Of a stretch of DNA of 64,000 nt, positions 2,159-37,526 are shown one piece after another. This DNA comes from Sporobolomyces roseus. Taxonomy: Eukaryota > Basidiomycota > Microbotryomycetes > Sporidiobolales > Sporidiobolaceae. The stretch spans positions 2,232,001-2,296,000 of the forward strand of contig JADILM010000002.1 of the NCBI GenBank assembly GCA_016617785.1. Direction: 5' to 3'. The translations under genes were made by a program, and so were the position numbers. Every line of letters starts with the position of its first letter. Position 1 is the first letter of the stretch. The notes under the pieces were generated by a model. That model was given only the letters and a program-made list of their open reading frames with translations, was not told where the DNA came from and did no database searches.

Positions 2159-2394
2159 CTTCGAAGAACGTGGGAGGAAACAGAGGGGAAGGAAGGGTCT
2201 CGAAGCTTATCGCTGCAACCGTTGAGTTCGATCAGCGGATCAAGGCCACGCTACTGACATGACGTAGCGACGGAACGACGCAATTCCGAGATTATGTTGA
2301 GGCCCTTTCGCAGCGATTTCGCGAGTTCTCAAACAATGTTATAGTTACAAGCTACTACCACATCGTCCGAGGATCTCCTATATACACAGAGATA

Positions 2395-4099: not shown

Positions 4100-4574
4100 T
4101 TTCTGGAAGTAAGTTGGGAGAGAGAGGCGGCAGAGGAAAGGGGCGAAGCCGTGTGGTCGAAGGATGAGCTAGCTGATTGTGTTCGTTATGATGCGCTGAC
4201 ACCCTGCTAGGCTTTTAGGATGCGGGCGAGAGGGGCTGGATTTGATCTTCCGATGATGAAACCAATTCGATGTAGTCAGACTGTAGCGTTTGATTCGTTA
4301 CTTTGACCGGGATTGCTACTTGTGTCGAAGAAGGAAATGATCCTGGAAGAGGAAGGAAGGGAGAGAGAGAGAGAGGAAACAGAGTATTCGGCGACTTGGA
4401 GACAAATTCTCAAGAATTCGCCGACGGGTCGCAAGGAAAGAGAGGGAAAGGGTCTCTATCATCTAGTTGCAAGGAAGAAACACTACTAACACATCTATAT
4501 TGGAACACAGGGTACAACAAACATAAACGACAAACGAACTAGATAGAGTTGCGAGAGAGACAGAGAGGGAACAT
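4100..4574. other. Intergenic: promoter side of the START gene and 3' flank of MDN1
   Basis: This gap lies between the minus-strand START gene start at 4099 and the MDN1 stop at 4575. It should hold the START promoter and the MDN1 3' UTR. The 4303-4542 ORF on the plus strand is low-complexity and I do not believe it codes. I see no other structure. Confidence 0.6.
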
Positions 4575-13500: not shown

Positions 13501-16500
13501 ATCGAGAGGTACGAGGGAAGAATCGATAGGCTGCATTGCATGACGACAAGGGAAAGTACAACAAAGAGGGTCTCAGCAAACTGAATCCAGCGTATTCTAG
13601 AGTAAAGCGAAATGGATTAGCGCGCACCTGAAGAGCGAAAAGATTGAATGGCACTTCCCGCGTTGTAGCCTGCTCCTTCTTGCTCGACATGATCGATCGA
13701 ACGAGAGCGTGTCTTTCCATTTGACGTAACGTGTACTCAACATTTGATGCGTCGAGCAAGTTGAAGGTTCTCAAAGCTCGAAGAGCAATTGAGTATTGCA
13801 CAGGTGAAAGAGTCGAGACGAGTTGTTGAGCGACTGCGGTCGGGAGAAGAGGTCGTTCAGTTGAAAGAGACAAGTTTGCGAGTCGAGCAATTGATGAAAG
13901 CGTTGGCTCGCGGTACTCGTCGGACGTGAAGCAATGAGTCGAGTCACTGATGGAGGTCGATTCTTCGTTTGATGAAGGTAAAATGGCGATCTCGATACCT
14001 CGATTTCGCATTGCTCTTGATAGTTCTCCGTTGCGAGGGTCGAGAGTCATGACAAGACGGAAATCTGGATGAGGTTTGATGATTTGGATCTCACCGTTGA
14101 CGGGACCTCGTTCAGCGAGTTGAAGTCTGCCACCTGTTTCAAAGAGAGAATTGAGTCGATCGAGGACGGAGGGACTGCAAGTGTTGGCATCTTCGATGAG
14201 AAGCCAATCTCCGTTCTTCATCGCTCGAACGAGAGGACCGTCGATCCATTCGAAACGAGCGGCGGAGGAAGTCGAAGCATCAGTCGTGATGGCTGATTCG
14301 ATACGAGCTTGAAGTTGTGCAAGTGCTGACGAGTCGATACCTGTCGAAATGTCGAGAGCGTGCTGAATGGTCGATCCGATTGAAGAAACGTCGAGACCGG
14401 ATTGGCCAGCTGCGAGGATAACTTGAAGTTCTTGAAGAGTGTGAGCGGCTTGATGCACTTCAGAAGTTGAAGAAGTCGCGAGTTGAGAGGAGGCGAAAGA
14501 GAGAAGGAGGGAGAGGGAATCGTCGAGGATGGTCGAGATTTCCCGCAATCGATCCGCTTGTTCGAAACTACCGAGGAGCTCGAGTGTGTCGACCTCGGCA
14601 TTCATTGAGAACTCCCGTAAGCGTCGACCAGCGAGCGCCGAAACTTGACGAACGAGTGAAGTTTTACCTCCAGCTCGAGGACCGGTGAGAATCGCTAACC
14701 AACCCATATCGAGACACTTGACGAGAGCTTCGAGTGGTTGGAACGATCTTTGAAGGAGGGATGGAGAAGTCGAAGGACGTCCACTAGCGATGGTCGAATC
14801 GGTGCGAGGGAGAAGGGAGTGACCGATCGAAGAGAAACGAGAAGTGAAGGAGGGGAAAGGTCGTTCGAGGGGATCGACCGATTCACCGAAAGCCTCGAGG
14901 AAGAGTTGCGCCACCTTCGTTCGATCGGAGAGGTTGCGGAACCTTTGAAGGTAGAGAAGTCCGAAGTACTCAATCGCTTCTCCTTTCCTTGCATCGAGAC
15001 CCGACGAAGATCGAACGAGGGTAAGCCATCGGAGGACGTCTCGAAGATTGAACTCCCAGGGTGACCCCTCCATTCCGAACGAGCGAGCCTCCATCGTCAG
15101 TTGGTGAACTCGAGAGTTGAAGGCGATCATGTTGCGAAGGATTTCGGAATCGATGTCGGGGAAGAGAGCGGCAGCGATAGCGTTCAAGTCGGTACTGTCG
15201 AGTTCCTCCATGTGAACGACACTGAAACGATCGAGGAAAGATCGAGGAAGACCTTTCCTTCCTCCTCCTTGACCGAGAGGATTTTGAGCGGCGAAGATTC
15301 GGAAATCGGGATGTCGAGAGAAGGTTCGATCGAGTTCAGGGATGTAAACTTGTCCACGATGGTCGAGACAAGAGTTGAGACCTTCGAGAACCGACTGAGA
15401 CGCCAAATTCATCTCGTCGAGTAGTACCCAATCTCCTTGTTGCATCGCTGCGAGGAAAGGTGCGTCCTTCCAAGCGAACTCTCCACTCTTGCCTCCTTCG
15501 ACTGGTAGATCGCTACCGAGTAGATCCATCAAATCGGTTTGATCCGAAAGATTGATCCGGACGAGGTGGTGACCAGTAGCAGCGCTGATTGCGGTGACGA
15601 GGGAGGTTTTACCGACACCAGGAGAACCTTCGAGCAAGACGGGTTTCGATAGTTGAAGAGCACGAAGGAGTCGCATAGCGTTGAGTCGAGTAGTAGGAGC
15701 GAGAAGAGTGTAGTCGACTTTGGCGGGAGGGAGTTCACCTTTCTTGACACCGAAAGGACCGATTGAGAAGATACCGTTTTGATCTTGCACGTCGAGCGGA
15801 AGGTTCTCGGGAGCCATGGTAGTAGGAACGAGAGTTTCGAGGTACCTCCAGCACGAAGTTCGAAGTTTCTCGAGTCCAGTCCTCGAGAGACTTGAGGTTG
15901 CAGGGAGAGCTCCGAGTCCATCGACGACCGTCATCAGAGCACCTTGACAGAAAGTATCGGCGACATCGAGGGTACTGCAGAAATACGCGGAAAGAGTCAG
16001 CTGGAAGATTCGAAATAAAGTAGAGAAAGAAAAGAGTAGCTAACCTGGATTTGGCAGAAACCGCATTTAAGAAGTCCACCCACCCCAAGATATCCCTCAA
16101 TCCGATCCCTAGACCCTCCGTCTGTCCAATCTCCAACGCGAACCATTTCGCGAATTCGATAATCTTCTGTCCGAGCGGTTCAAGTTGTTCGTTCCTCCAT
16201 CGCTTACCAACGATATGAAGGAGATCATCAACGTCGTCAACTGCTGGAACCCAGATCTCGGTGAACCGATTTCGTAAAGCGGGTGAGAGCTCCTTCTTTC
16301 CAAAGTCTCCTCCAGGATTCATCGTAGCGAGGATTTGGAAACCTGGTTCTCCGACGACTTGAATGTCAGAGAGATCTCGTCCTCCTTTCTCGGCGAGTAC
16401 TAGTGTCCGCGATGGTTCGAGGACAGAGTTGAGACGTTCGAGGACTGAATCGTCTGCGAGAGAGATTTCGTCGAGAAGGATGAGGTCGCCTCCGTGCATC

Positions 16501-19500
16501 GCTTGAACGAGGGGACCGTCGTGCCATTCGAAGAGAGCAGTAGTAGCACGCATTCGATCTGCGAGCTCCTTCGCTTTCCTTCGTATCCGTACGTCGATTT
16601 CGTCTCCACCCTTCGCCAATTCTTCAACCTCGGTAAGGACATCCTCGAAGTCCTTCTCCTCGTCGATCATTCGCTCCGCTTTCGAAGCCAACTCGGAAGC
16701 CTCCTTGGTGAGGGACGCTTGAATGGATGCTCGATTCCGTAATGGTCGTTGTCCTCCAAGAAGATCGGCAGTTTCGGTGTTTTGATGACAACCGACGATG
16801 TGAAGTTGACGACCAAGAGCGAGAGCGAGTGATTGACAGACCGACGTCTTGCCGGATCCAGTTTCTCCGACGAGAAGAACGGGTTCGTTGCGGTGGAGGG
16901 AGGCGGCAATGAGGAAATAGAGTCGTCGCATGGCGTTCGTCCAAACGAGATCAGCGTTCTGAGGCTGTAGAGCAAACGAAGGAGAGTCAGCTCGATGGAA
17001 GGAGAGAGAGAAGGAAGGAGAGAGAAGGGAGAACGTACAGGAACGGGTAAACCAATCTCAGGTAACCTTGCGAAATCGTACAATTTCTTCTCATCGATAG
17101 TGACTTTGAGGACCTCTTCCAACACTTCCTTCACCACTTGTTTGTCATCCGGTCTCCTCGCACGTTCGGCCAATAACATGTAACCATCTTCGGCGAGTTG
17201 TTGAATGTTCTCGACTGGACCTCGACCTCCCCATCGGAAGAGATCTCGGAGGGTGACGAAAGCTTGTTTCTGTTCGAAGACTCGACCTGCTTGACGACGA
17301 CGTTGAAGTTCGAGGAAGACGTTGACGGTTCGTTCGGCGTGAGAAGGGGCGATCCTACACCTCCGTTCGAGAATCGTCTTGAGTTCATCTTTCGGGACGT
17401 CGCCAAAGTGCATTTCGAGGAAACGATTTCGGAAAGCGCGAGAGAGAACCTTTCGACCACCGTAGAGACCTGGAGGATTTTGGGTAGCGAATAACATGAA
17501 ATGGGGATGTGGTCGAACAACTTCTCCAGTTTCGGGAATCAGGAGTTCTCGATTATCGTCGAGGAGTCGATTCAGCGCTTCGAGGACGTCGGTAGGGGCG
17601 AGATTGAGTTCGTCCAATACGATCCAGTCTCCTCTCCGTAAGGCTCGAACGAGGACTCCTTCTTGAAAGACGAGTTTCCCGGAATGAGGATCCGAAACGT
17701 AAGTTCCGACGTACTCTTGAATGTCCGTGTGCTCGTGATTGTTGATACGAACGAATCGGTGACCAGTACGTTTCGCGAGGTATTCGACTACACTCGTTTT
17801 ACCAGCCGAAGTCGGACCTTGAATGAGCACCGGAACTTTTCGAGTGAGAACTGCTCGAGCGAGATCGCAGACTTTCGCTTGAACCGACGGAGTGAGAATG
17901 TAGTCCTCCGGTGTTTCGGGTTCCTCCTCCCCAAGTGCGAGCCAGTAATGGTGAACTCGAATAGCGTCTTCGAGATCTGCTGGTTTCGCTGGTGCCTTCT
18001 CCATCATCGATCGAGGATTCTTCGCAGGTTGAACGATGTGCTTGTCGATGAGAACCTTGACGACCTCCTGAGATTTCGGGTCGAGGAGCATCGTGAACGC
18101 CATGACGAATCCTTCGTAGAGTGAACGTCGAAGACCGAAAGTAGGAGCGAATTCGGAAGCGAAGGAGAGAGCTCGAGCGAGGGTACGCATCGAGAAGTGA
18201 GGAGGGAGATTCTGACCATCGGCGAGTTGAGCGCGAAGGGCGAGAGATTTGACCGTAGAGTAAAGTTCAGCGATGTCGGCGATGACTTGTCGATCCGAAA
18301 CTGCGACTCTTCCGATGTAACCTTCGACGATCGTCCGTAACGCATCTCGATCTTCATCCGGTGGAGGAACCCAAAGTTCAGTGAATTTCGATCGAAGTCC
18401 AGCGGGAAGATCTCGTTTTCCGACATCGGTAGCTGGATTCATACATGCGAAGAGTCGGAAGTCGCGATGTCGAGGGATGGGTTCGAGATCACCTTGTTCG
18501 GTAAGGACGAGAGAAGAATCGGGAGCTTGAAGGAGAGTCGAAAGGGATTCGAGAGTTTCAGCCGAAGCGAGATTGACTTCGTCGAGTAAGACCCAGTCTC
18601 CAGATCGGATCGCTTTCGCGAGAGGACCTTCGACGAAAGAGAAGACGAATTTCGCTTTCCCTTTACCTCCTGTCGATCCAGGTTGAGCGTGTCGAGTGTC
18701 GAAGTCGGCGATGAGGGAGAGATATTGTTTCCAACGATGAATGAGGTTCGCCGTCGCTGCTTCCAACTTTCGCTTCTTCCTGGGTGCATCTCCGTTCTCT
18801 CCGGCTGATACAGCATCCATATCATCGAATCCACCTAATCGATCACTCGCCATCCTCGCCGCTTCCCTCCAAAGTCCGACCAGTCGAGGGTAACGCTTCT
18901 TCGCAAAGGCTTTCTTGACGGCAGTGACGAACTCGGCGTTTCGAGAAAGCGAGAAGGTTTGTCCAAAGAGATCGACGAAATGATTGACGAGTTCGGAAGC
19001 GGATCCTGAAAAGAAAGAAAAAGCGAAACAAATCCAAAATCAGTTCCGAAGATCGTTCGGACCGACAAGAGATGAGGAAAGAGAAACATACGTCTAGCTT
19101 CCTCAGCTTCATCGATTGGTCTGAATCCTCCAACCAAATCACCACTTTCCGTCTGATTACTCAAATTGATAGCCGTCAATCTTCTCCCCATCATTTCCGC
19201 CAAATATCCTACCGCAGCAGTCTTTCCAGTTCCCGTCTCACCCACCATCAATACCGGTTCCGCCAAACTCAAACACGCCGCCAACTTTTCGAGTACGATC
19301 AAAGAAGGTTTCGTCAGGGCGTAAGGTCGAGATGGTGTTTTCGACGAGGAAGTGGAAGCGACTGGTTGATAAGGTAAAGAGACTCGACCGATTTTGACGT
19401 TCTGAGTAGGAGTAGAAGTCGAAGGAATTCGTCCGGTAGAAGTATCGATATTCGGCATAACTAATTCTGGAACTCGTCTCCGTAGAGCCCACTCCATTCG

Positions 19501-22054
19501 TTCGTCGCTGAGTCCGAGTGAAGTTGCGAGAGTTCGAGAAATAAGAGAGTATCGATCGGATGAAGTCGGTTGAAGGGGAAGAGAAAGGGAACCGAGGAAA
19601 ACGTCGCGAGCTTCGATAAAGACTTCTTCTTGTAGAGTTGGATTCGAGGCGAGAGAAGGGAGGGAAAGGGAGGGAGGAAGTAACGCCGAAACTCTTCGAC
19701 ACCATCTACCAATCCCTCAAGAGTAATCAGAGTCAGCAACGAAAGATCAAAAGAGTCGAGTTGGGAGAGAAGGGAAGGGAAAGGGAAGGAGCGTACCTGA
19801 GAAGATCTCTAACCCCTACATCTCGTTTACTTCCCCCAACTTCTTTCGTCCCACTCTGTCTCGTATTCCCATCCCTAACCTTCTCCCAAGCCCCGACCAA
19901 ACATTCCCTCAATCCTACAATCCTCTCCAATGCCTCATACCTCCCTTTCACAATCTCTCCAACTTCGTCATTCGATAGGGGTTCCAAAACGACTTCTTGG
20001 AAAAAATGACTCGCAAAGAATGAAGCTTGAGGTGCGGTGACGACTCCTTCTTCTGAAAGCGAGATCGAGGAGATAGGTACCGATCTCGTTGCGAATAACA
20101 TGAATCCTTCTCTAGCTTTGATCCATTTCCCGTCCCCCAACCTTACTCCAACTCCACCATCTTGTTCCTCACTCCCCAAACCGCCTCTAGATAAACAAGA
20201 GGAATGCATTCGTTCAGCGACAATCTTGATGACGCTCAACAACTCTGGAGCGGCTTGATCGATATTCAACAAGAGGGTCCAACGTCCTTGTCGTAAAGCA
20301 CGAGTTAAGGGTCCTTCGATGAAAGTGAATTCACCTGCTCCTGAAGTAGAGGTCGAAGTTGAAGAAGAAGAAGAAGGAGCGGAAGAGAGAGATCCGAGGA
20401 GGGATTTCGAATCGAGCGAACGATCCGCTAGGTTGATGATTACTAGTCCACGTTTCTTTGCTGCTTCCGTCTTCTTTTGTGATGAGGATGAGGATGACGA
20501 GTTGGGCGAAGAGTGGACGAGGTTCCAGAGGTGATTGATGGAGGATTGTTTTCCGGATGAAGGGGAACCGGTTAAGAGAACGGGTTTGCGGGTCGGGAGG
20601 TGGGAAGCGAGGGTACGTAAGAGGGTAGAGTGGGAAGAGGTCGAAATGAATGGTTCGGGTTCTTGTGTGGTCGTCGTCGAGGACATGAGTGATTCGGTGG
20701 ATGAAACGGAGGCAACTGCTGTTGATTGAGAAGATGAAGAGATTGATGGAATGAGTCCTTCTCGAAATGCAACGACTCCTTCGATCACAACGACGAGTTT
20801 ACCGAGTTCTGAAGGTTGAATTCCTAAAGAGAGATCCTCCGAATCGAGATATTGAAGATCCTCCTTCCTGTTCTGGATCTCGTTTGATCTGACATCCTCG
20901 ACGAGAGGGAGGATCCAAGGATCGACTCCTCGTTGCCTAACCATGACTTCCAATCCACCTTCGATTAACCTCGCTCCTTCTTGTCCTCCAACAACCTCCT
21001 GATCCCAACTTCCAGGTGGTAACAAGTCTTCTTCTCCCTCATCCTGACCTAGTGCTGACGTGTACTCATCCTTGAGATCCGATGGGTATTGAGGCATAGG
21101 AGAAATCTCATCCACTTCGTTTCCTTCTCCTCTTTGCAAGACCCAACGTGATTTGAGGTCTTCCCCAGTCCCAGCATACAATCCTAACCAAGCACGAACG
21201 CACCTCCACGCGACGAGGCGGATTGCGCGAATAGAGTGAGTCTTCATGAGTAATTCGAGTTGGGATGGGAGAGGCCAGGAAGCGATTGAGGGGAGAGTCG
21301 GGAGGTGATGAAGGAGGGAGTGGAGAGTGAGTAAGGAGCGAGCGAGAGTCGAAGGGTCGGCATCAGAAGGAGGGAGGGGAGGTCCTCTTTGAAGTAAAGG
21401 GTGACGGCAGAGTAAACGCAAGAAACTGAAACAGAAAGAACCAATGACACTTTCGAGATCAGCAGACATTCGGGAGGGAAAAAGGAAAGGAGAGTATGAG
21501 AGTGAGAGAACGTACGGTAATGCTTCTTCGCGTAATAGAGGTAGAGCTTTGGTTAAAGCGAACCAAACTTTTTCTACTGCGTCTCCTTCTCCCTGAGCTT
21601 GTTCTACTCCTTGTTCACCACTTCTCCAGTTCCCTTGATCGTCCAGCCCGAGTAATTCAAACCAATTCCCTACGATCGCAGTTGCGAGTGGTCGGTAAAT
21701 AGAGAGGATTTCGATAGTGATTGAAGGAGAGAGTGACAGTCGACAAAGAGTGCTCAAGATGGCTCTTCTCACCGTGGGAGTGAGTTTCGCTGGTTGTACT
21801 GTGAAGGGGAGGTTGGTAGGGATTGCTGGAGAGGGTAGGATAGACAAGAGGAGTTGAAGATCGGAGAGTGGAATTAATCCGAGTAAAGTCGAATAAGAGA
21901 CGACATCTTGACGAATTAGAGACTTGTTGGGTGATTGACTAGTGGGAAGGAATCCAATACGTTCTAGGAAGAGTTGAGTAGAGTGTGAGAGGTCTAGAAG
22001 TAAAGGTTGTTGTTGAATTGTTTGAGAGGTCGACTCCTGGACATCCACGTCCAT
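4575..22054 (-). CDS. MDN1: Midasin (MDN1/REA1), dynein-like AAA+ ATPase of 60S ribosome assembly
   Basis: Midasin uses ATP to strip assembly factors (the Rsa4 and Ytm1 complexes) from pre-60S particles in the nucleolus and nucleus. About 21 exons give roughly 5,300-5,400 residues, slightly longer than the yeast protein. Six AAA units run from the N-terminus. Walker A motifs GETGTGKT (near 19.24 kb), GPTSAGKT (17.80), GETGSGKT (16.86), GSPGVGKT (15.61) and GPRAGGKT (14.67) follow a degenerate first unit, GSPSSGKQ (20.55). Walker B blocks such as LLDEVNLA, VLDELNLA and LLDEISLA are present. A long linker (about 13.5-7.9 kb) leads to a very acidic D/E-rich region (7.55-5.6 kb) and a C-terminal MIDAS/VWA domain with DDSKS near 5.4 kb. 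The protein ends in FPFEHFVVLR...LRQFFEAVSSDR. One 90-nt intron (21515-21426) keeps the frame open and is easy to miss. The first ATG is at 22054. Confidence 0.96.
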
Positions 22055-22232
22055 GACTGTTGAGTGAGTAGTTGAGTTGGGTTTTGCCTACAGTCTACTG
22101 AGTGAGAAGGAGGACTTTATTGGGTGAGAGGAGAGGAGAAGAAGAAGGCAAGGTTTTTCTTCACTCTCTCTTCTCGAGTGAGCTCGCTCTTGCCTCAACC
22201 CCCATCTTTCCATCTTTCGGCTTTAATCTACA
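22055..22232. promoter_or_regulatory. Divergent promoter between MDN1 and AIM41
   Basis: The 178 bp separate the ATG of MDN1 (minus) from the ATG of the AIM41-like gene (plus), so both promoters and 5' leaders must share it. It has pyrimidine-rich runs near 22150-22215. No TATA box is evident. Confidence 0.6.
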
Positions 22233-25832: not shown

Positions 25833-26182
25833 TTACTCTTGTCGTCAATAACGAAAAGGAAAGAGGGGAAAGGGATCGCAGATTCGTTTGTGTTGTACAT
25901 GTTTTTAACAGACTCGCACTATCGCAACATCGCAAAGACACTCGTTATCTCTCTTGTTGGCTTCACTTGCACTTGTGCAACAAGGAGAGACACGAACAAA
26001 GCACTTCGTAATCGACAATCTCGCTCGTATGAGTTTCTCGCCTCTCTGCAGTCTCTCTCGCTTCAGCTGCAGCGAGACCAAGAGACAAATGTTTCAGACA
26101 GTATCGTGTTTCGTATACACCCTCGACTACCATCCCCCAACAATTCGACTCTTCTCTCGCCCTCTTTCTCGCTACTCCTTCC
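25833..26182. other. Convergent intergenic region
   Basis: 350 bp between the stop of Zn2Cys6 gene 1 (plus) and the stop of the four-helix membrane protein gene (minus). It presumably holds both 3' UTRs. Nothing else is seen. Confidence 0.5.
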
Positions 26183-27295
26183 TTACGATTTCTCCCTCGT
26201 GCTCGATTTCTTCCCCGCTCGAATCTTCTTCAAATCGTAAGGAGGCGTAGGAGATTCGATGTCGATTCCATACTTCTCAGCGGCTTCGATGTCGGCCAAT
26301 TCGTCGAGGTAGTGAGCGACCATCAAGACCAAGTAGAGTTGGATCAAGATACCGATCACGTATGCCTGCGAATTGACACCTGAATTCACGATCAGCTCGT
26401 CGTGATAGTGAGAGCTGGGTCGACTCACGAAGTCGATAAGGAGTAGATGTTTCTTGACGGCGGAACTGCAGCTCAATGCGAGATTCGCAGATTGATCGGC
26501 TGTCACGACATGGTTCGGAGGCAGCTCTTCGGCTAACTTGACGAAAGCGATGGCAGTACTGTCGACCACATTGATCTCGCTAGTCAGCTCTGGGTAGAAA
26601 GGATGACTGGAAAGAACAGCACGACTGACCAGATAGCAGCTCGATAGTCTTTCGCGGCGGGTAAAGAGAAGACGACGATTCCGTAGGTACCGAGAACAAC
26701 GTTGATCCAAAGATGCCACTGTCGAGTGGAAACGGTCAAGGTGTCAGTTGATAAAGTCGGCGAGTCTCGAGCGCGAAACAACGACGAATCGAGCAGAAAC
26801 AGAGAAGGCAGGTCTCTTACCCAGAGTAATCTGTGAATCACGACTGGTCTCGAGCTCAGATTTGTTACAGTCTCGAGAGAAAAGCGAACTCACTCGTAGT
26901 ACCATTCGACCCAATCGTAATGCTGTCGAACAGTTCCGAGCCAACCTGCGGATCAGACCACGCCATCAGCTGTGATGTACTTGCTGATAGCGCCGTTTTG
27001 ACTCACCATAGACGCAGACTACTACGAGACTCCACCAAATTACGCACTCGAGCAAACAAACCCAAACGACGAAACCCGAAATGAAATTGTCCTCTGTGAA
27101 GATCACCTTTCAGCTACTACTGACACTAGTAGGCGTGAAGGAGGTGAGCTCACGGAAGAGAGCTACTGTAGCCTGAAGTGCGAGGGTAGCCGAAATCAAG
27201 ATTGAAAGGGTCGACAACATCAAAGTTCCTACTCGAGCTGAGACGCAGAAACAACATGTTCGTGATTTGACTGAAGACGCTTGAAAGACGCCCAT
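26183..27295 (-). CDS. Four-helix integral membrane protein of unknown function
   Basis: About six exons make a protein of roughly 250 residues. The first exon (27295 to about 27154) reads MGVFQASS, then a Cys cluster CCFCVSARVGT followed by a hydrophobic helix. The next exons encode two more hydrophobic segments (FVVWVCLLECVIWWSLVVVCVYG and the NVVLGTYGIVVFSLP segment). The last exon carries a fourth, AYVIGILIQLYLVLMVAHYL, then a charged cytoplasmic-type tail with YGIDIESPTPPYDL. The CC-x-C motif directly before helix 1 is shared by several small four-helix families (LAPTM-like and fungal relatives). I cannot assign one, and the function is unknown. The gene is divergent from the large nuclease gene. 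Confidence 0.65.
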
Positions 27296-27901
27296 CTTGC
27301 TGTATCTTTTGAGTGGTAGGCGAATGGGAGTGAGCGGCAGAGGATGAAGGAGTGAGCGAAAGAAAGCGAAGAGTCAGTGCTCACACCCAATGTGCTGACC
27401 TGAGAAGCAAGAGCTCACCTGTCGATTCCAGACAAAAGTGATGGGGAGGAGGAAGAGAGTGAACAGGGAAGACTCTCTCAGGATTGCGAATGAACGCCGC
27501 GGATCTTACGGAGCTGACTCGGTCCGAAGAGCAGCAATCTTAGCGAGAGAGAGAGAACAACAACAACCTAAATGAACGAGCGTAGGGAGTCAGAAGAGGC
27601 GAGATTTGTCGAGACGAGAGGTTCGAACTTTCCAGAGACGGCGACGCTTTCCCCTCCTCTCTCACCCTCTATTCTGCTATCAAACTCTTAACAGACCAGC
27701 ATAGCGACGTCAAGAGCAAGCGAGCACTCCCCATCACCTCTGTCACTCCTCATAGTCACCGCTCTCCTCTTCCTCCTTCCTTTCCATCGATCTCTTCTCA
27801 ATCCTCTGACCGCTTCAACTCCCTCTCTCGCTTACTGAGAATCGGTACCTCAGCTTCAAGTAATTCAGTTCAACACTTGAAGACAGTATAGCAGCGAGAC
27901 G
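27296..27901. promoter_or_regulatory. Divergent intergenic region before the XPG-Fanzor gene
   Basis: 606 bp between two divergent start codons (27295 minus, 27902 plus). It contains a GA-rich stretch near 27540-27570 and a CT-rich, TATA-less stretch near 27640-27840. I found no terminal inverted repeat matching the downstream flank of the plus-strand gene. Confidence 0.5.
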
Positions 27902-30900
27902 ATGGCAATCAGAGGGTTAAACAAGTTTCTGGAGCAAAGAGGTTCAGAACATCAATGGGAGAAGAAGGCAGAAGAAGCTGAGAAGGAGGCGAGCGCGAAG
28001 GAAGCTAAGAGGTCTACGAAGAGGAAGAAAAAGAAAGTAGAGACGAAGGAGGAGAAGGAAGCGAGAGTTGCAGAATGGATTTCGAAGAATCGGGATGAAA
28101 CAAAAGAGTGGCACGTTACCTTTACGACTGAACGAGAAAGGGTTGAGTGGATTGAGAAGAGGAGGGTTCACTTGGGCCTTGATCCCAGTAAGCTGCGCCT
28201 CAGATTCACCCGAATTCGAAAACGAATGCTAATCTCTCCCGTCTTTGCTCACAGTCGACGCCTCCGTCATCGATATGGGTCTCCTGTATCCCTCGCGTAT
28301 GTATCTTCCCGTATTTTCGATCCAACGAGTGTGAGCTGATCACTAGTGATAGAGAACGATCATAGTCATCAAAATCCGGAGCAAGCTCTACAACGCTTAC
28401 CGCCTCGGTCGTCTCGACGCTTTCGAAGTCAATCGAATCCATACCTTCGGCCACCTGCAACTCTGCAACATCACCATCCAGCAGCACCAGGAGCACTTCG
28501 GATCTCATTCAAGGCTCCTCGCCGCTTTCGACCACCACGATCAGCGGGACCAGGAGAAGGAGAAGACTGCGAAGGAGAGGGCGGAGGTAGAGATGAAGAA
28601 GCGAGCTGTCGGAATTCAGGTCAAAGAGTCGAAGAAGTTATACGACGAGAATCAACAACGGAGGAGGAACCATCGTCGGGAGAAAATTGCGAAGAAGAAT
28701 GGCGAGGAAGAGAAGATTGGGATGATTATTGAGGAGGAGATTGCGGATGGATTAGGAGATCAGAAGGAAGTGGATCAAGATTCGAATCATGCAGAGGATC
28801 AGGTCATGTCTGGAGAGGAAGGGAACGAGGGGAATCCTGAATTGGGAAAGGTCGTTGAGCGAGTCGAGTTATTCATTGTAGAAGCTGAAGCAGAGGGAGG
28901 AGGACAGGCTGGATTTGACGGTGCTAGTAGGGAGATTGAACTTGAGATCGAGGGAAATGGCAAGAAAGAAACTACTTCTCGTTCGAAGGGAAAAGGGAAA
29001 GAGCGTATGTTCTTCCCTCTCTAGCACCCTCTCTCCCCTTCAAGCACTGACACGCTAGGCAACGATATGCAGTTCTTTCTATGGATAACCTCTTCCTTCC
29101 TTGGGCACCACTCGATATGGACCAAATCGTGAGCTCTTCTCCCGCTCCCCCTTTATCCACCTCTTCCTCGTTGCTGAGGTAGCTCGTCCTTACAGGATCA
29201 CCTCGAATCTGAAACTCCTCTAGGACGAGCCATCATTGACGAGGCACTCCTACTTCTTACAACCGCTGATCAAGCTATCGCTAAGACAGAGGCAGACTAC
29301 CTCTTGCGCCCTTACCTGACCGGAACCGACCTCTCCACTTCTCCCTTAGTCGATTGCTATGTCCCTCGCTGGTCACCTCTTCAGGCTCCACAAGGTTCGA
29401 GTCAGTACAGGTCGTCACCTGCTGCAGATCCCTCGGCTCCTTCCTCTTCCTCACCAGCTGCTCCCACTTCTTCTTCCCAACCTACACCTCTCGTCTCGGC
29501 AACTTCTATCACACTCTCGCAAGATTCCGATATTCCCGCTTCCCTCGACTACTTCTCCACCGCTTTCCATCTTTCTTCTCTCTGGAGGAACGGCGTTTTA
29601 TTACATCGAGTAACCGATATGGCGGGAATGGCGGCAGCGTTAGGTTGGAGTAGTAGGTGGACTGTGGCAGCGCTAGCAGGATTTGCCGGGAATGATTTCG
29701 TTGAGGTTGGGTTGGATGGGGTTGGGTTGAATCGGTTGTCAGATCGAGAGGACGATAAGGTGGAGGAGCTTTGGACGAGTGTGGTTGAGCCAGCGGAGGA
29801 ATGGATTACGGCTCGGCGATCATTCCTTCACGAAGAACCCTCGACCCTCTCCCTTTCCCTTCCTCTTCACTACGGCCCTTTCCAAGCTTTCACTATCGAA
29901 GAGATGAGCGTTGACTTTGACGAATCTCTCGATCCCTTCTACGCCAACAAACCGACTCACTCTCCCCGACTTCACTTCGACACTTGGGCCAACTCGGTGG
30001 AGATTCAAGCAGGGAATGGAGGTAGCGGGGAACCAGTCAGTAAGCGAGTGATCAGGAAAGAGGTTGAATTCGAGGTGATAGAGAAGAGGAAAAGAATGAG
30101 AAAGCGAACGAGGGGACGCAGGAAGTCGAGCGAGAAGTTGGGAGTTTCGAAGGAGGAGGCGATGGAGGTTGAGTTGGAGTGTGGAACATCAAACGGTACG
30201 GAAGAGATGGAGATCGAAGTGAAGGAGGGTATCGCTAGGAAAGGAGCTCTGTCGTCGTCATCGAAGCAGAAGAAGGAGGAGGAGGAGGACCACTCTTCAC
30301 CACGACAGCCTCGCAATCATCCTATCCTCTTTCCTGATCGTTCTCCGACTGCTGCACTACAATTTGATCAACTTCGTCCACTACCGAATATTCCTTCAAC
30401 GAGTCAATCAAACAAGCGAAAACCTCGCAACTACCGTCGCCGTCCTGCGCCAAACGGAGCTCAATACTTCCAGCTTCTCGAGCATGAGCGAGCCGAATAC
30501 CAGAACAAGCTCTCGACTGGGGTCACCGACGCTAGCACCGACGATGCTTCGGATCTCGACTCGGAAGACGACGATTCCATCGGTCCTTCGAAGAAGGCCA
30601 AACTTCGAACTTCGACAGCTTTCGACACCGACGAATCGACCTGGAAAGGGAAGGGGAAGGGGAAAGGGAAAGGGAAGGGGAAGGGGAAAGGGAAAGGGAA
30701 GGAGAAGGAGAAGCCGAAATCGAAGACCGAGGCCAGCGAGGGGAGTACGGACGAAGAGATAGATGACGGGAAGAAGTCGAAGAGCGAGAAGCAGGGGAAA
30801 CGTCTTCACTTTCCCAACGATGAACGGAAGGCGTACAAGAGTGCTGTGCGACCTCTTTCGAGTGGAGTTTTGCGCTCTTGGAGTGAACATCCCGGTACGT

Positions 30901-33900
30901 TAAAGTCTCTTCAATCTCTTCGTAACCTTCGACTGACCGAGGCCTTCACCTTATAGACGCACCGGAAGCGCTCCTCGACGTGTTCTCGTGGATTCGTCAA
31001 CTCTGGATCGGCGAAGTACCAGCCAAACTCGACATCATCAACAGGATCTTGTTCTACTACTCGATTTTCGGTCAGATTCAGTTTCAGCCCATCATCAACG
31101 GAGGTCAACACTTCACCTCGTGGGCTGCCTCTCAGTCGCTACGCTTCGAGTGGTTGAACCAGTACATGGAAGATCACCGAGACGTCAAGGGAGGGAATGA
31201 TTTGGCGAGTCGTGATTTGGTCACTGTTGCTTTCAACGAGGTTTTGGCCTTATCATCAAGTGATCGAGAGCGGGACCTGATGGATCTGGTAATGGGAATG
31301 CGATTGAGTCGAAACGAGGTGGAGTTTATGCGTGTAAAACGAAACGACAAGGTAAGCAACCTCTTTTCTTCCCGAATTAGCGCTAACTACGGTTAAATCT
31401 GAGCTGATCTCGAGTGGAAGTACAGCTCGATGCGCTGTGCGATCTCGCTCTTCTCGCCCATCGTCGATCAGGAGGAGTCATTCCAATTCTCAATTCCGAC
31501 GATTTCCTCAACCGTAACTTTGTCAATCTCGCAACAAATTTCTCCAACATGACCCGTTCACATGCTCGCCAAATCGACTTTATCTTCGCCTCGATCATTA
31601 CGAAACAACCTTCCTTCTTCCTCGTTGACCATCGCTCGACGCCGTTTCGAATCCCGACCCGACCGATTCTCGAAGCGTTCGCTCGACTTGACGAAGATGG
31701 GATAGGACTTCTGGAGCGGGTCGCAAAATCGGTTCCTGCTCATCGAAGGGTGCGGGAGGTACTGACGCAAGTACGAATTGGGCAAGTCACTCCTCAAAAC
31801 GACAATCTCGCGTTTCACCGATCTAGATTGGCACGCCAACTGTTTCCCATTCTCTCTTCCCTCGCTATCGCCACCAGCACGGACTCAACTTCGGCGATCT
31901 TCGCGACTCTGCAGATTCCGACGATAGTCGAAGGAGTTATTTCGTTTATGCTCGCTCAAGTCGAATGGACCGTGGAGAACTGGAGAGTTGCTTGGAAGGG
32001 AACAGGGAATGCTGTTAGTGACGTGACAACGATGGGAGAATGGATAGTAGCTTCAGGAGGAGAGGAGAGGGAGGTTCACGATGATGATTGGGTTCGGGGG
32101 AAGAAAGGAAAGAAGAACGGGAAGAACGGGAAGAACGGGAAGAACGGGAAGGATGTCAATCACGATGAGGAGATTCCGGATACCGAGAACAAGGCTTTGG
32201 TAGGATTGAAGGTGTTGATGGGTCGATTCGCACATTTTCGTCGTCGACCTCTGGTAAGTCAACTTTCGGTCAAGTCTCCCTTGATTCCGTCGAGACTGAC
32301 GGTTTCGGTTTGTTACAGCGCTGGTCTCCCACTACTTCATCTTTCAATCCCGAACTCTTGCATGCGTTCTTGGCAGATGGATTCATGCTCGGTACCAAGA
32401 TCAAGCTCGACATCAAACGACGCGAGATCGCTACCGACCATCAGAATGCTCGAATCAGCTTGAAGTCCGAACTACCAGCTTTCGACCCATTCACCTCCGA
32501 AGACTCCCTCTCTCTGTCTGGAACCATCGCGTCGACCGTCGCTCGTCGACGTATTCTGCGTTACGCCGAGACCGATTCGACAGTACATCGACAGCTCGAA
32601 CATCCAAGAAAGGTCGTCTTCTCTACCACCAACGCATGGCGATCAATTCCTTTCCCCGACGACGCTTCCCCTGGTCCACTCTTGGTTCAGCGGCTCGTGC
32701 CTGACGTCGACAACTACATCAACAAAACTCTTGCAACCGCACGAGAGCTCTTCAAGGCCCTTGGCATCACTACGACGGAAGACTTCCGACATGGAGCGTA
32801 TTTCGTCACTGAACTGCTGTTCAAGCCGACTTTCGGTCAATGGCTGGTCAACGGAGACATTACAATCTCCGACAGTCGAATCATCCTTGGCTGCGTTGAT
32901 CATCGTTATCGTTCTCGCTCAATGGTCGAAACACGTGAGTCACTTCTGAAATCTCGAACGAGGTCGACAAATCTTCGTAAACTGACCCCTTCTCTCTCAA
33001 CGATCAGTCGAAGAACCGAATCTACCTGCACGCGAACTTGTACTGAAGGAGCTCAACGCCGACAAGCGAGTTCTACCGGTCGCGGTCAAGTTATCGAAAG
33101 GTCTCGCCTCCAAGAAGCAAGTTCGAGTCCGAAAGATCCAGATCCCGGAGGAGGAACGACAAGATGTAGTCGACGAGAAGAAGACGGACTCCCAGAGGAG
33201 AAAGCTTGAGTGGCAATCGAAATCGCCGGGAGAGAAGGATCGAGCGATTGAGCGAGAGAAGGAGAGGAAAGTCAAGCTCAGCGAGGCATGGCAGCAATAC
33301 CACCTTCAGAAGAACGACGATCCAACGCTTCAACCTCCTCAATCACAACCTCGAATTCGACGTCGTGGGGTGCCGCGTTATCGTCAAATTCGGGAGGAAA
33401 TCTCCTTCGTCCCCCGGTTCTCTCTCACTGCCTCGCAGAAGAAGTTTCAATGGTCTCCTCGATCGTCCAAATCGTCGCCTCTCGCACCTCCTCCCTCTAT
33501 CTCGCCTGTCTCCCCTTACGAGCGCCGCCCTCCCCACCTCTTCGTCAAGGGAGTTCCCGAAGGATCCAAACCTCTCGATCGACCCGTTCGAGCACGAGAC
33601 GCTGGTCAAGCCTTCTGGAAGACTGTCAAGGAGAAACCCGAATCGCGACCGGTCATGGTCACTCACGATCCTGGGGAGGTGGTAGCCGATGTCGTCGCCA
33701 TTCTGTCGTTCACAGAACCAACTTCGGAACGACATTTGATCGGAGGGAAACAGTTCTTGAAGCGACAGGTCGAAGATGGACAGATTGCGAGAGAGCTGGC
33801 GAAGTTTGGACCTTCGAAGCGATTGTCGGAAGCGATGAATGGTGCGTTCTTCGTTTCCCTCTTTTTGAGCGAGCGAGTTCATGACTCATCGTCATTGGGG

Positions 33901-34982
33901 CCCACAGGTGCGAGCGACAATTCAATGCATCTCTCCGAACTCTTCCAACGTGAACTACAAGCCCCTTCACTCCCTTCGCTCTTGAATCCCCACGCTTCGC
34001 CTCTCAACCCTCCACTCTTCTCTCACGAACTCTCCTCGCTCCCATTGCCCCTTCTCTCCATTTCAAATACTCGACAGGAACATCTTGGTCTCTTACGGTC
34101 CCACGAGGTGCAACAAGTCCGCTTGCAGAAGCAACAGCGATTCTCCTCGGACGAGATCAAGTCGACTTTGAGGAAGCCCGACGGTTGGAAGATCGACTCT
34201 GCCAAGCAAGTCGTCCTGAACGTTGTACCAGCTGGAGCTACCCCTGCCCACGGTGGATTCGGCACATCTGTCTCGAGCGTGATCGTCGGATCCACTTCGA
34301 ACGGATTGAGGAGTCTACCTTGGTTGGATGTGACTACGATCTCTTGTGGAGAAGGACACACAAGCTCGACATGCATCGACCCCCGTTGTCGTTCGAGGTG
34401 AGCTCTCGTCTGCTATTCTCGTCAATAGGTTCCTTTACTGAAGCTGTCGAATGAAATAGTCTCCTCTCTCCCTGTTTCCTCGTCTCTCCCGACGCCTCTC
34501 CGATGAATCGAATCAAGTACTGCCTCTGGGCTCTAGCAATGGACCACCGAGATGGCTTGGCGACGTCGAACATCGCCAGCTTGGTCTACTTCAACTCTTT
34601 CGAACTCGGCGAAAACCCACTCTCTCCTGAGTTCGGCGACAAAGTTGGACGGAAGAGACACTTAGTAAACAAGGCTGCGACAACAAGAATGAGTCGAGCA
34701 CTGCATCGAGTTGTCGAGGAGCAAGGGGAGGAGGAGGTCAAAGAGATGTTTGGGAAACTTAGTCGAAGCGATTCGATGGATTCGGCTAAGAAGTTATTGA
34801 GGACATGGCTAGAAGAGAAGATGAAGGGGAGTGGGGTCGCTCTTGAGGAGGAAGAGGATGGAGAGGGAGAAGTGAAGGTAGAGGAGAAGCGTGAGAGGAG
34901 GAAGGGGAGGAGGGGAGGTCGAGGTAAGAAGGGTAGACGCAAGGACTACGATGACGAAGATCCGATTGCTGAGGAGGAATAG
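27902..34982 (+). CDS. XPG/FEN1-like nuclease fused to a Fanzor (TnpB-like RuvC) domain
   Basis: Eleven exons (27902-28187, 28255-28296, 28366-29004, 29073-29128, 29196-30894, 30957-31351, 31426-32253, 32319-32934, 33008-33841, 33908-34397, 34460-34982) sum to 6,408 nt and join without a frame break into 2,135 residues. The N-terminus MAIRGLNKFL, D97 (IDAS), D165 (AFDHH), E373/D375 (TEAD), D451/D453 (SQDSD) and D508 (GNDF, followed by GVGL) follow the order of the XPG/FEN1 active site. The C-terminal part has D1741 (THDPG) followed by SERHLIGGKQF, E1947 (CGEGHTSSTC) and D1993 (DHRDGLATSNI). These match RuvC-I, the Fanzor-type glutamate at the zinc ribbon, and RuvC-III. The middle (about 900-1600) is unrecognised and lysine-rich in places. 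The TnpB-like match is my motif reading; a search is needed. Ten introns argue for a resident gene rather than a fresh insertion. Confidence 0.7.
30645..30713 (+). repeat. In-frame (Gly-Lys)n tract
   Basis: A purine-only run of AARGGG-type units encodes about nine Lys-Gly pairs and then Lys-Glu pairs inside exon 5 of the nuclease gene. It lies around residues 825-850, between the XPG-like part and the middle region, and is probably a flexible basic linker. Confidence 0.85.
32113..32151 (+). repeat. 9-bp tandem repeat (AAGAACGGG)n
   Basis: About four copies of a 9-bp unit encode repeated Lys-Asn-Gly in exon 7 of the nuclease gene. The unit keeps the reading frame, so copy-number change would alter only linker length. 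Confidence 0.85.
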
Positions 34983-36356
34983 ATTGAGAAGTATTAGTTG
35001 GTGATAGAATGTAAGAGTATATTTATCTCGTATCTATCTGCGCTCCGAGGGAGTAGAGAGAGGAATTATTGCGTTCGATTTTCGAGTGTCCTAACGAGCC
35101 AGCAGTCTGACACGGCGGTGATCAACCCTTCTCAAGCTATGCTTGGTATACGTAAACGAGAGAATCCGATATCGTCGAAAGGGCGAGTTCGACGCTGATT
35201 TGCGATCCACTCGCAACGAAGAAATTGCGAAATCCGAAATTTCGCAAATCAGCGCTATTTGATTGGGATCGAGATTGGTTTACGATGATTGCTCCGCAAT
35301 AGTATTCTAGCAGAACTAGCACGCAAAGGTATTTGCGAGAAGAAGAGAATCCAACTTGTTCGTTTCTCGCACTTTCACTTCACTCGATTCTCAACACAAC
35401 TCGCGAAGCACCATACAGATATCCTCATCTCTACCCAGCAATTCTATACAGCTCTACGACAGGCTTCGAATGCGGCAAGTGGTTTGGAAAGGAGGGAAAA
35501 TTTATGGGGAGATCAAGTCGCAAAACAGGGCGACATACAACACCGGGAGGAAAGAAGAGGCTACCGAAACATCTGATTGACCCATCATTAGACCTCTACG
35601 CAAACTTGCAGCCTTAAAGAGCCCTTGCAAGACCAGCAACAGCCAATCTTCTCGAAAATTGCAACCCTCATCCCTCAAGATGGGCTACAAGGTCACTGAA
35701 GAGATCCGAGAGGGATGGGAAGCTGATTGGGAAAGGGTCACGATCAAGATAGAATCGGATCAGCGAAACGGGATTAGGTCAGTTAAAGGAGAGAGAAGGG
35801 ATAGCCCACTTCAAAAGGAATGCCTCGCGGGTGAGTTCTGTTCAATTCCACATATCCAATTGATTGGAGAGCTGAGCCTCATCCACGGCTGCATAGGCCT
35901 CTGAGTGATATCGAAGGATTACCCTGTCATCGTTTCGTTTCGCAAATCCCAACCTCCTGCCCTACAGCCCTCCTTTCGCCTTCAGGCCAAGCCGTACCCA
36001 GCATGGAATTCGGCTAGTCCTACTTCGCTGTAAATTGCCTCGATGTGCAACGTTAGGAACCGCTTTGTCGCAAAGATACTCCGAGAAAGCAGCGAGAATG
36101 GAGAGAGTTCAACAACTGCGATCCCGTAGACAAGGACGAGACTCCCGAACACTTCACGTTCTACTCGAGAATGGGTAGTGTAGTATTTCGAGTGCAGAAT
36201 AAACGTGACAAGTAGGGTTACAAAGGAAATTGATTTGACTTTCTTCAGTTGGCTGATCTGCAGTAGTTGAGGGAAGGAAAGAGGCGCTGATCGTTGTTGC
36301 ATGAATATGAGGGGGTAGGTGTAAGCTGAGGGAATCAAAGCGGTTGACTGGAGGCA
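34983..36356. other. ORF-poor region downstream of the nuclease gene
   Basis: 1.37 kb between the nuclease stop (34982) and the stop of the next minus-strand gene (36357). It contains a long inverted repeat (35193-35254). Short plus-strand ORFs around 35289-35617 and 35659-35904 overlap in several frames, and none resembles a known protein. A splice-like GTGAGT lies near 35830, but I could not build a convincing gene. Fanzor guide RNAs are usually encoded at or just past the 3' end of the protein gene, so the first 300 bp are a candidate region. No guide RNA can be called from sequence alone. Confidence 0.4.
35193..35254. repeat. 13-bp perfect inverted repeat, 36-nt loop with nested dyad
   Basis: Arms CGCTGATTTGCGA (35193-35205) and TCGCAAATCAGCG (35242-35254) are exact reverse complements. 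The loop holds a second dyad, ATTGCGAAAT against ATTTCGCAA, which partly shares the right arm, so two alternative hairpins are possible. It sits about 210 bp past the stop of the nuclease gene. Confidence 0.8.
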
Positions 36357-36901
36357 TTATTGTGGAGCGAAACTGCGAAAAAGAAGGAAAGATGAGTCAG
36401 AAAGCACCGGATTGAGTAGGAGCGACCGTACGAGGCATACCTAGGGAGAGGTAGAGTCTTAGGATAGGCTCGTCCAGGAGGAGTAGGATGATACTGCCCG
36501 GGAGGAATCGGAGGAAGGGGAGGCGGCGAAGAGGGTCGTTGACCCGAGAGTGCGGCGAGCTCTTTGTGGTAATATTCTGTTCTGGGCTCGCCCCTGAGAA
36601 CCGGCTTCCAGTTATTGGGTTGAAGCTCCGCCTTAGACGAGGAAGGAGGTTGAGCCTTGACTGCCTCGTTCTTGACCTTGTCCTTCTTTCCCTTCTTCTG
36701 AGGTTGCAAAGTCTCGCCTTCCTCGTCTACCGCTTTGACACCTCCTCCTATGCCCATCGATCTGAACTTGGCCTCCTCGTTGTAAATGACTGGCGTACCG
36801 CGCTGACGTCGAGGACGAGTCGATCCAGTAGTAGCGTTTTCGGAGGGAGGAAGGACTGGAAATTCTAGAGAGACTCGTTCGAACTCTCGACTGGACGACA
36901 T
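36357..36901 (-). CDS. Small proline-rich hypothetical protein
   Basis: Two exons (36901-36441 and 36372-36357) join in phase to give 158 residues ending PLPSFAPQ. The second exon is only 16 nt: donor GTATGC, acceptor CGCAG. The N-terminus is MSSSREFERVSLEFPVLPPS. A basic segment RPRRQRGTP and the lysine run QPQKKGKKDKVK follow. Near the C-terminus is a proline-rich stretch SSPPPLPPIPPGQYHP. No domain is recognised and the protein looks largely disordered. A further 5' non-coding exon is possible because splice-like sites occur upstream near 36960-37010. Confidence 0.6.
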
Positions 36902-37526
36902 AGCGAAACTGTCCAGGTACAGGCACAAGCGAGATGTCAGATTCGGAGGAGATAAGAGGATATAGAAACGCAGAAAAAGTCTGTAAAGAGAAAAGATTGT
37001 TCGACTTACTGATTTGTGAGAGAGGGTAGCTGTCCGGTATGTTTGATTGAAGTTGAAAAGGGCTTGAGTCCAGTTGAAGTTGATTGCAGGGAGAGAGAAG
37101 CAGGAAGCGGGCGATTTCGAGTCGAAAAGCTTTTGCGGAACAGGACATCGCAGCGAGGTCCCTCTCAAATTCAGTTCTCGCTTCGACCAAGTCAGTGTAT
37201 ATTGCTATCAATCTATGTGCTACGAAGCAGATTCGAAAGAGAGCGACGCTGCGCTGCGAGAGTCGAAAATTCGGTCAAAAAATCGAAGACATCTTCGGAT
37301 GAGGTGTGGGGGTGGAAGAAAAGGAGCAGAAAGGAACTTTCCTCTCTTTCCTTCCTTCTCTTCACTTTTCGACTAGAGAACAATGATCCTACTCAAACTC
37401 AGCAAGCAACACTGCTTCTACAAGCTTGAGGGTTTCCTCTAAAGAGGGTTAGTGCTTGAAAGTAAGCACCCTCTCTCTCTCTTCTCCTCTCTCCTCTCTC
37501 CTTATGCTTACACCTCACTCATCTAG

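Follow-up and report, generated by a model that had tools for sequence, protein, structure and literature searches.

The stretch of DNA considered here (the window, 64,000 nucleotides at C2:2232001-2296000 of a 22.4-Mb genome in 15 contigs) contains a gene whose predicted protein carries nuclease-type residues of two kinds, those of the XPG/FEN1 group towards the N-terminus and those of a Fanzor-type RuvC nuclease towards the C-terminus. Fanzors are eukaryotic relatives of TnpB that are guided by omega RNA and are usually several hundred amino acids (aa) in length. An earlier reading of this DNA (the original prediction) had proposed that an XPG/FEN1-like and a Fanzor-like nuclease are joined in one protein, and the present analysis upholds this proposal, mainly through relatives of the window protein (W).

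The window gene and its family

Starting from the raw sequence, we reconstructed the exon model, with splice sites inferred from the sequence and from the relatives, and recovered exactly the previously claimed protein of 2,135 residues encoded by eleven in-phase exons with ordinary splice sites. All introns are GT-AG introns of 62-74 nucleotides (nt), and the frame runs for 2,135 codons plus a stop (Table 1). Alternative splice pairs around exons 3, 4 and 5 likewise leave the frame open; the chosen pair (GTATGT/CAG and GTGAGC/CAG) comprises the best-looking sites and yields the length first predicted.

Table 1. Positions in the window of the gene, its exons, the segments and motifs of its protein and the hairpin in its 3' flank
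Feature	Position	Strand	Remarks
Window gene	27902..34982	+	2,135 aa, 11 exons; aligns nearly full length to L016 and L018, also to P0002 and P0003
Exons 1-4	27902-28187, 28255-28296, 28366-29004, 29073-29128	+	
Exons 5-8	29196-30894, 30957-31351, 31426-32253, 32319-32934	+	
Exons 9-11	33008-33841, 33908-34397, 34460-34982	+	
XPG_N-like segment, aa 1 to ~200, exons 1-3	27902..28640	+	Invariant columns; outside the hhalign match
XPG_I and helix-hairpin-like segment	29196..29900	+	hhalign match to XPG nucleases
Conserved middle region, aa ~908-1598	30957..33241	+	19-55% identity to relatives
RuvC-I motif D1741-P-G (THDPG)	33667..33675	+	D and G invariant in 5 of 5 aligned proteins
Alternative RuvC-II glutamate E1947 in E-x2-TS-x2-C (GEGHTSSTC) and zinc cysteines C1954, C1959	34351..34389	+	
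Third zinc cysteine C1983 and RuvC-III HRD 1991-1993	34521..34553	+	HRD at 34545-34553
Strong hairpin region 3' of the stop codon	35133..35282	+	z -3.21; weak guide-RNA candidate

By the searches made, the genome has five genes of this build, the window gene and four others. A genome search with the whole protein identified L016 on contig C3, which has the same layout and is ~29% identical, and matched C2 and C7 more weakly. Proteins of 2,078 aa for L016 and 1,982 aa for the C7 gene (L018) were obtained by spliced alignment; applied to the near-identical C2 gene (L017), the L018 exon model gives an open frame of 1,984 codons. The fourth, L031 on C5, was exposed by a genome search with PF07282, the Cas12f/TnpB zinc-ribbon domain. 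In its partial splice model (C5:1506001-1515900, gene at about 1440-8629), L031 has a fully canonical Fanzor C-terminus with DPG, the alternative glutamate and four cysteines. Weak PF07282 matches at C9 and C1 were dropped; among the matching-strand open frames of at least 120 aa, nothing resembled a gene of this family.

Relatives were also sought in a collection of ~5.8 billion protein sequences, in which the 8,000 candidates sharing most words were scored. Only two relatives were among them, both from Sporobolomyces roseus and both annotated as hypothetical: P0002 (1,859 aa), which as annotated begins after the XPG_N part and is informative for the remaining part only, and P0003 (2,099 aa). 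Two additional searches of the protein collection, with 7,998 scored candidates each, returned no more relatives. Pairwise identity is 56.1% for W and P0002, 29.2% for W and L016, 29.0% for W and P0003, 38.0% for L016 and P0003 and 20.5% for W and L018. P0002 is the apparent S. roseus orthologue of the window gene. In the tree W groups with P0002 (support 100) and L016 with P0003 (91), a pairing which suggests that the split between these two lineages is older than that between the two species.

Eight of the ten window-gene introns have a counterpart in both L016 and L018, in the same phase and within three alignment columns, in a comparison for which the aligner was guided by the window protein and was blind to its intron positions. 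The window gene is on these comparisons real and not a chance reading, because the same motifs, their order and the intron positions recur in relatives that are 20-56% identical. The layout is common to six proteins or gene models of 1,859-2,135 aa (P0002, as annotated, without the XPG_N part), which with the shared introns makes it unlikely that two separate genes have been read as one.

The two nuclease-type halves

The motif published for Fanzors and TnpB is D-X(125,275)-[TS][TS]XX-zinc finger-X(5,50)-RD (PMC3627910). The published Fanzor fingerprint consists of DPG in RuvC-I and a glutamate relocated to six residues ahead of the zinc finger, a combination found in <1% of TnpB relatives (PMC10711439). 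The C-terminal motifs that had been pointed out in the window protein, THDPG, GEGHTSSTC and HRD, lie at the positions given and in the order RuvC-I, glutamate-zinc ribbon, RuvC-III. Their spacing falls within the published motif (208 residues from D1741 to T1950, then C1954 and RD at 1992), and both DPG and the alternative glutamate of the fingerprint are present, as they are in L031 (DPG, PEAYTSQLC). In the C-terminal alignment, D and G are invariant in RuvC-I, as are the glutamate, three of the cysteines, HRD and the subsequent NI; the spacing between glutamate, cysteine and RD is identical in all five aligned members, and the Fanzor-specific glutamate is kept in these five C-termini and in L031. 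RuvC-II/III with the zinc ribbon is the most conserved of the measured segments, being 80% identical between W and P0002.

PF07282 is matched above its cut-off by L018 (29.6 bits, cut-off 26.3, E 7.7e-07) and by L031 (41.9 bits, E 1.2e-10, with the exons joined at a 224-nt GT-AG intron whose phase is as in the relatives), and the cut-off is not reached by the window protein, P0002, L016 or P0003. An alternative, dubious join of L031 through a three-residue micro-exon scores 40.9 bits with PF07282, and the separate exons score 20.1 and 14.8, below the cut-off. The best PDB match of the L031 C-terminus is Guillardia theta Fanzor1 at E 0.062, with one other match up to E 10, at 3.1; with the micro-exon join the same Fanzor1 is the sole PDB match (E 0.18), in register through VPExYTSQxCPxC. 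In profile-profile comparison by hhalign, the clade of the window protein (W, P0002, L016 and P0003) aligns with L018 at a score of 82.4 (E 4.4e-11; maximum of 100 shuffles 24.6) and with the L031 C-terminus, joined at the 224-nt intron, at 39.1 (E 2.8e-05; maximum of 100 shuffles 17.1). Identification of the C-terminus as a Fanzor-like RuvC is thus supported mainly through the relatives, and the complete lack of profile matches that would have told against the original prediction was not observed.

For the N-terminus an alignment of five members from four lineages (W, L016, P0003, L018 and L031) was made with the linkers trimmed. The acidic motifs in XPG/FEN1 order that had been predicted largely stand, with D165, E373/D375, D451/D453 and D508 all retained; D97 does not, and the first family-invariant aspartate is instead D102. 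The XPG_N-like segment starts with MAIRGL and has D102 (codon 28272-28274, in VIDMG), D165 (codon 28530-28532), K174 and R181, while the codons of the XPG_I segment start at 29289 (E373), 29295 (D375), 29523 (D451), 29529 (D453) and 29694 (D508), after which comes GLDGVGL. Invariant columns include D102, D165, K174, R181, E373, D451 and D453; the D375 column is D or E. All seven catalytic-type acidic residues occur in order in W, L016 (with E for D at one position), P0003 and L018, and the seventh, at the D508 column, is D in four of the five members and E in L031. When read against the residues of EXO1, the invariant acidic columns of the trimmed alignment all coincide with catalytic positions of XPG nucleases, and we take these columns to correspond by residue number to the catalytic residues of FEN1. 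The K-x6-R spacing of K174 and R181 is as in EXO1, which is a weak point given that this stretch is rich in basic residues.

By hhalign, the five-member trimmed alignment matches a small XPG set at a score of 41.3 (E 4.9e-5) over 104 columns, in register at EAD, DSD, GNDF/GCDY and GxGL. None of 300 column shuffles exceeds 25.1, and the two control profiles, the reversed one at 11.7 and that of the C-terminus at 14.6, also score lower. Reducing the set to W, L016 and P0003 brings the score down to 26.5 (E 0.0077; maximum of 150 shuffles 21.2), and a set of W, L016, P0003 and L018 left untrimmed scores 27.5 (E 0.0083; maximum of 100 shuffles 20.2). Against four proteins of the same genome alone, only a 23-column match to the hairpin was obtained (E 0.0014), and the XPG_I profile run over this genome gave seven matches, none of them within the window. 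XPG membership of the N-terminus is supported by residues and by profiles, and not by Pfam or structure.

Between the two halves, the conserved middle region has no Pfam match and may occupy the place of the WED and REC parts of Fanzors. A long KGKGKG repeat, encoded at 30640-30720 of the window, lies in the linker between the two nuclease-like parts, and lysine-rich linkers near this position are also present in the four aligned relatives.

Genomic setting, duplication and guide RNA candidates

The window gene has a midasin-like gene on one side and, some way downstream on the other, genes of CLASP-like and class-III aminotransferase type, so that housekeeping-type genes lie ~6-13 kb away on both sides. 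The minus strand at 5050-22087 holds a run of large reading frames, of which one (13337-16039) was scanned against Pfam; it matches the AAA_5 and midasin AAA lid domains and is likely to be midasin. No convincing terminal repeats surround the window gene among the 25 of 41 inverted pairs listed; two of these listed pairs, of 17 and 16 nt (the longer purine-rich), flank the whole gene and were judged to be due to chance. The window copy looks stationary and is more likely to be ancient, retained or used by the host than to be an active transposon, because no convincing terminal repeats were seen, the 3' flank is single copy, the neighbours are of housekeeping type and there is an apparent S. 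roseus orthologue.

A different setting was found for L018 (C7:1209809-1220609) and L017 (C2:1605669-1616479), which are two copies of a ~10.8-kb unit that end sharply and are 96.1% identical. Inspection of this unit showed no inverted repeats at the termini and no clear duplication of a target site, and copies of its ends were not found elsewhere in the genome, bar two 59-base partial matches. The unit was recently duplicated and may be a transposon or a segmental duplication. Both genes are open and differ by 50 synonymous and 60 non-synonymous changes, giving a ratio of non-synonymous to synonymous divergence (dN/dS) of 0.37 over 1,980 codons (Fisher test, p 6e-7), and the protein has therefore been under constraint after duplication. 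Identity along the unit is uneven, at 99.2% 5' of the gene, 98.2% in exons, 97.6% in introns and 92.4% in the 3' part. A second frame lies on the opposite strand of the unit (L018:7626-8618, minus strand); inspected by eye it shows zinc-finger-like motifs, it matches Pfam FOXP-CC at 29.5 bits (cut-off 28.9), and it is possibly a passenger transcription factor.

Membership of this family makes a guide RNA for the window protein likely. A search of window positions 26000-37500 against Rfam gave no match, and there was no structured-RNA signal shared by the regions downstream (3') of the family members. The hairpin listed in Table 1 has the arms GCTGATTTGCG/CGCAAATCAGC, starts ~150 nt beyond the stop codon and is single copy; its z-score is within background, as 120 random windows reach -3.45.

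Competing explanations and significance

The explanation that best accounts for these data, and that we regard as probable, is that W belongs to an old multi-copy family of giant Fanzor-type proteins, in which an N-terminal FEN1/XPG-type nuclease is followed by low-complexity linkers, the middle region and a C-terminal Fanzor RuvC with its zinc ribbon. The architecture itself, with both nuclease-type halves in one protein, is by the comparisons made here real and conserved. Similarity to Fanzor1 and Fanzor2 extends to a RuvC with DPG, the alternative glutamate just ahead of the zinc ribbon, an RD-type RuvC-III, spacing inside the published motif and two members (L018 and L031) that pass PF07282. 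Unlike these Fanzors, the window family has proteins of ~2,000 aa with an N-terminal FEN1/XPG-like nuclease, zinc ribbons that in W, P0002, L016 and P0003 keep only three of four cysteines, and no omega RNA that we could find. Shared with FEN1, EXO1, XPG and GEN1 are the seven ordered acidic positions, the E-x-D and D-x-D pairs, K-x6-R, GxGL after the last aspartate and, in L016, P0003 and L031, an MG start; the window family differs in lying below Pfam detection, in having long low-complexity inserts between the two halves and in being joined to a RuvC nuclease. Searches of the open-access literature found no description of a fusion of FEN1/XPG with Fanzor or TnpB, in agreement, for that literature, with the original prediction, which knew of no such system. 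The fusion would then represent a Fanzor variant without a description in the open-access papers searched.

Several observations weigh against this explanation. At the C-terminus, DPG is restricted to W and L031, the other four proteins having DTG, DGG, DEG and DLG, and the four-cysteine zinc finger is present in L018 and L031 whereas the fourth cysteine is replaced in W, P0002, L016 and P0003 (by alanine in the window protein, when compared with CLWCKIHWHRD of L031). A PDB profile search with the C-terminus gave chance ribosomal matches and no nuclease, and the hhalign score of the window clade against a 65-aa piece of G. theta Fanzor1 alone (16.7) is below the shuffle maximum (18.9), the one exception among profile-profile comparisons that otherwise exceed every shuffle at both ends. 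Pfam matched no family at either end of the window protein, nor XPG_N or XPG_I in any family member tested. At the N-terminus, L031 departs from the other members at the seventh acidic position, the hhalign match spans XPG_I and the hairpin and excludes XPG_N, and the XPG signal, although present in each set, is strong only with the divergent members and so depends on trimming and membership. A PDB profile search with another N-terminal alignment placed archaeal FEN-1 (1b43) in the right register at a non-significant E of 0.79, and the search with the five-member alignment gave no XPG match. Structure prediction, which had been suggested as a check of both ends, was run with AlphaFold on the N-terminus of P0003 (four-row alignment) and gave no usable fold, with a mean predicted local distance difference test (pLDDT) score of 45.9 that is too low for a fold search. 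Finally, a guide RNA for the window gene was not found by Rfam, by hairpin z-score or by comparison of the 3' regions of the relatives.

The sequence itself shows the gene and its family, the catalytic-type residues of both sets, the introns that members share and the placement of one member in a recently duplicated, bounded 10.8-kb unit; from these we infer that both active sites would bind metal and cut DNA. Fanzors are not known to contain more than one nuclease centre, and the processing of ends is a task for the cell. In the window family, the anatomy suggests that the RuvC centre and a flap-nuclease centre could act at the same DNA site. Most likely, the Fanzor half would open and cut the target, probably using a guide RNA encoded at the locus, and the FEN1-like half would trim the resulting 5' flap, displaced strand or junction. 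We offer, tentatively and as a doubtful extension of the architecture, a two-active-site RNA-guided enzyme in which finding and cutting of a guided target would fall to the Fanzor half and removal of the displaced 5' strand to the FEN1-like half, so that one polypeptide would produce clean gaps or excision. Such a design would predate the split of the four lineages and would have been retained in a unit that looks mobile as well as in stationary copies that possibly serve the host.

The RNA-guided step is the only part contested by a second explanation, namely that the protein is a domesticated double nuclease for genome maintenance of the host, acting on branched DNA, in which RuvC was kept and RNA guidance lost. 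This is a realistic possibility, if short of a favoured one, and its probability overlaps with that of the giant Fanzor-type protein. It would explain why the window copy has a single-copy 3' flank, housekeeping-type neighbours and no convincing terminal inverted repeats, why W and L016 each pair in the tree with an S. roseus protein, P0002 being the apparent orthologue, and why the members' downstream regions have no structured-RNA signal in common. The retention of the Fanzor fingerprint residues runs counter to a loss of guidance, and the sharply bounded repeat of L017 and L018 indicates that movement or duplication has occurred in one lineage at least.

Alternatively, the N-terminus could be some other acidic domain, PIN-like or unrelated, in which motifs in XPG order arose by convergence. 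The lack of a Pfam match, the weak PDB profile matches, the low-confidence AlphaFold model and the much lower profile score obtained with closer members alone or without trimming all fit this view. We nevertheless consider it unlikely, as convergence would have to produce a 104-column alignment with XPG that stays in register through EAD, DSD, G(N/C)D(F/Y) and GxGL and scores above all 300 shuffles and both control profiles (reversed and C-terminal), smaller sets whose scores are likewise higher than those of all their shuffles (150 and 100), and an alignment in which all invariant acidic columns are XPG catalytic positions.

AcademX transposons carry a DDE transposase and a nuclease of XPG type, and an Academ-like transposase whose C-terminus has been misread as Fanzor is very improbable, given that Pfam detects the TnpB/Fanzor zinc ribbon in two members and that the Fanzor-specific glutamate occurs in the five aligned proteins and L031. 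AcademX elements, which are reported to encode a nuclease and to have target duplications of 3-4 bp (PMC10045372), do provide a precedent for such a nuclease in a transposon; in a comparison by description, the window family differs in that the partner is a TnpB-type RuvC and the L017/L018 unit has no visible terminal inverted repeats or 3-4 bp target duplication.

The role of Fanzors in their hosts is described as unknown (PMC10432273). If the giant Fanzor-type protein is as we describe it, its built-in flap-type nuclease would show how a eukaryote has extended an RNA-guided cutter, and would be a natural starting point for one-protein editors that both cut and trim. The host role of a Fanzor would also become testable in a yeast-like fungus in which stationary and repeated copies occur side by side.

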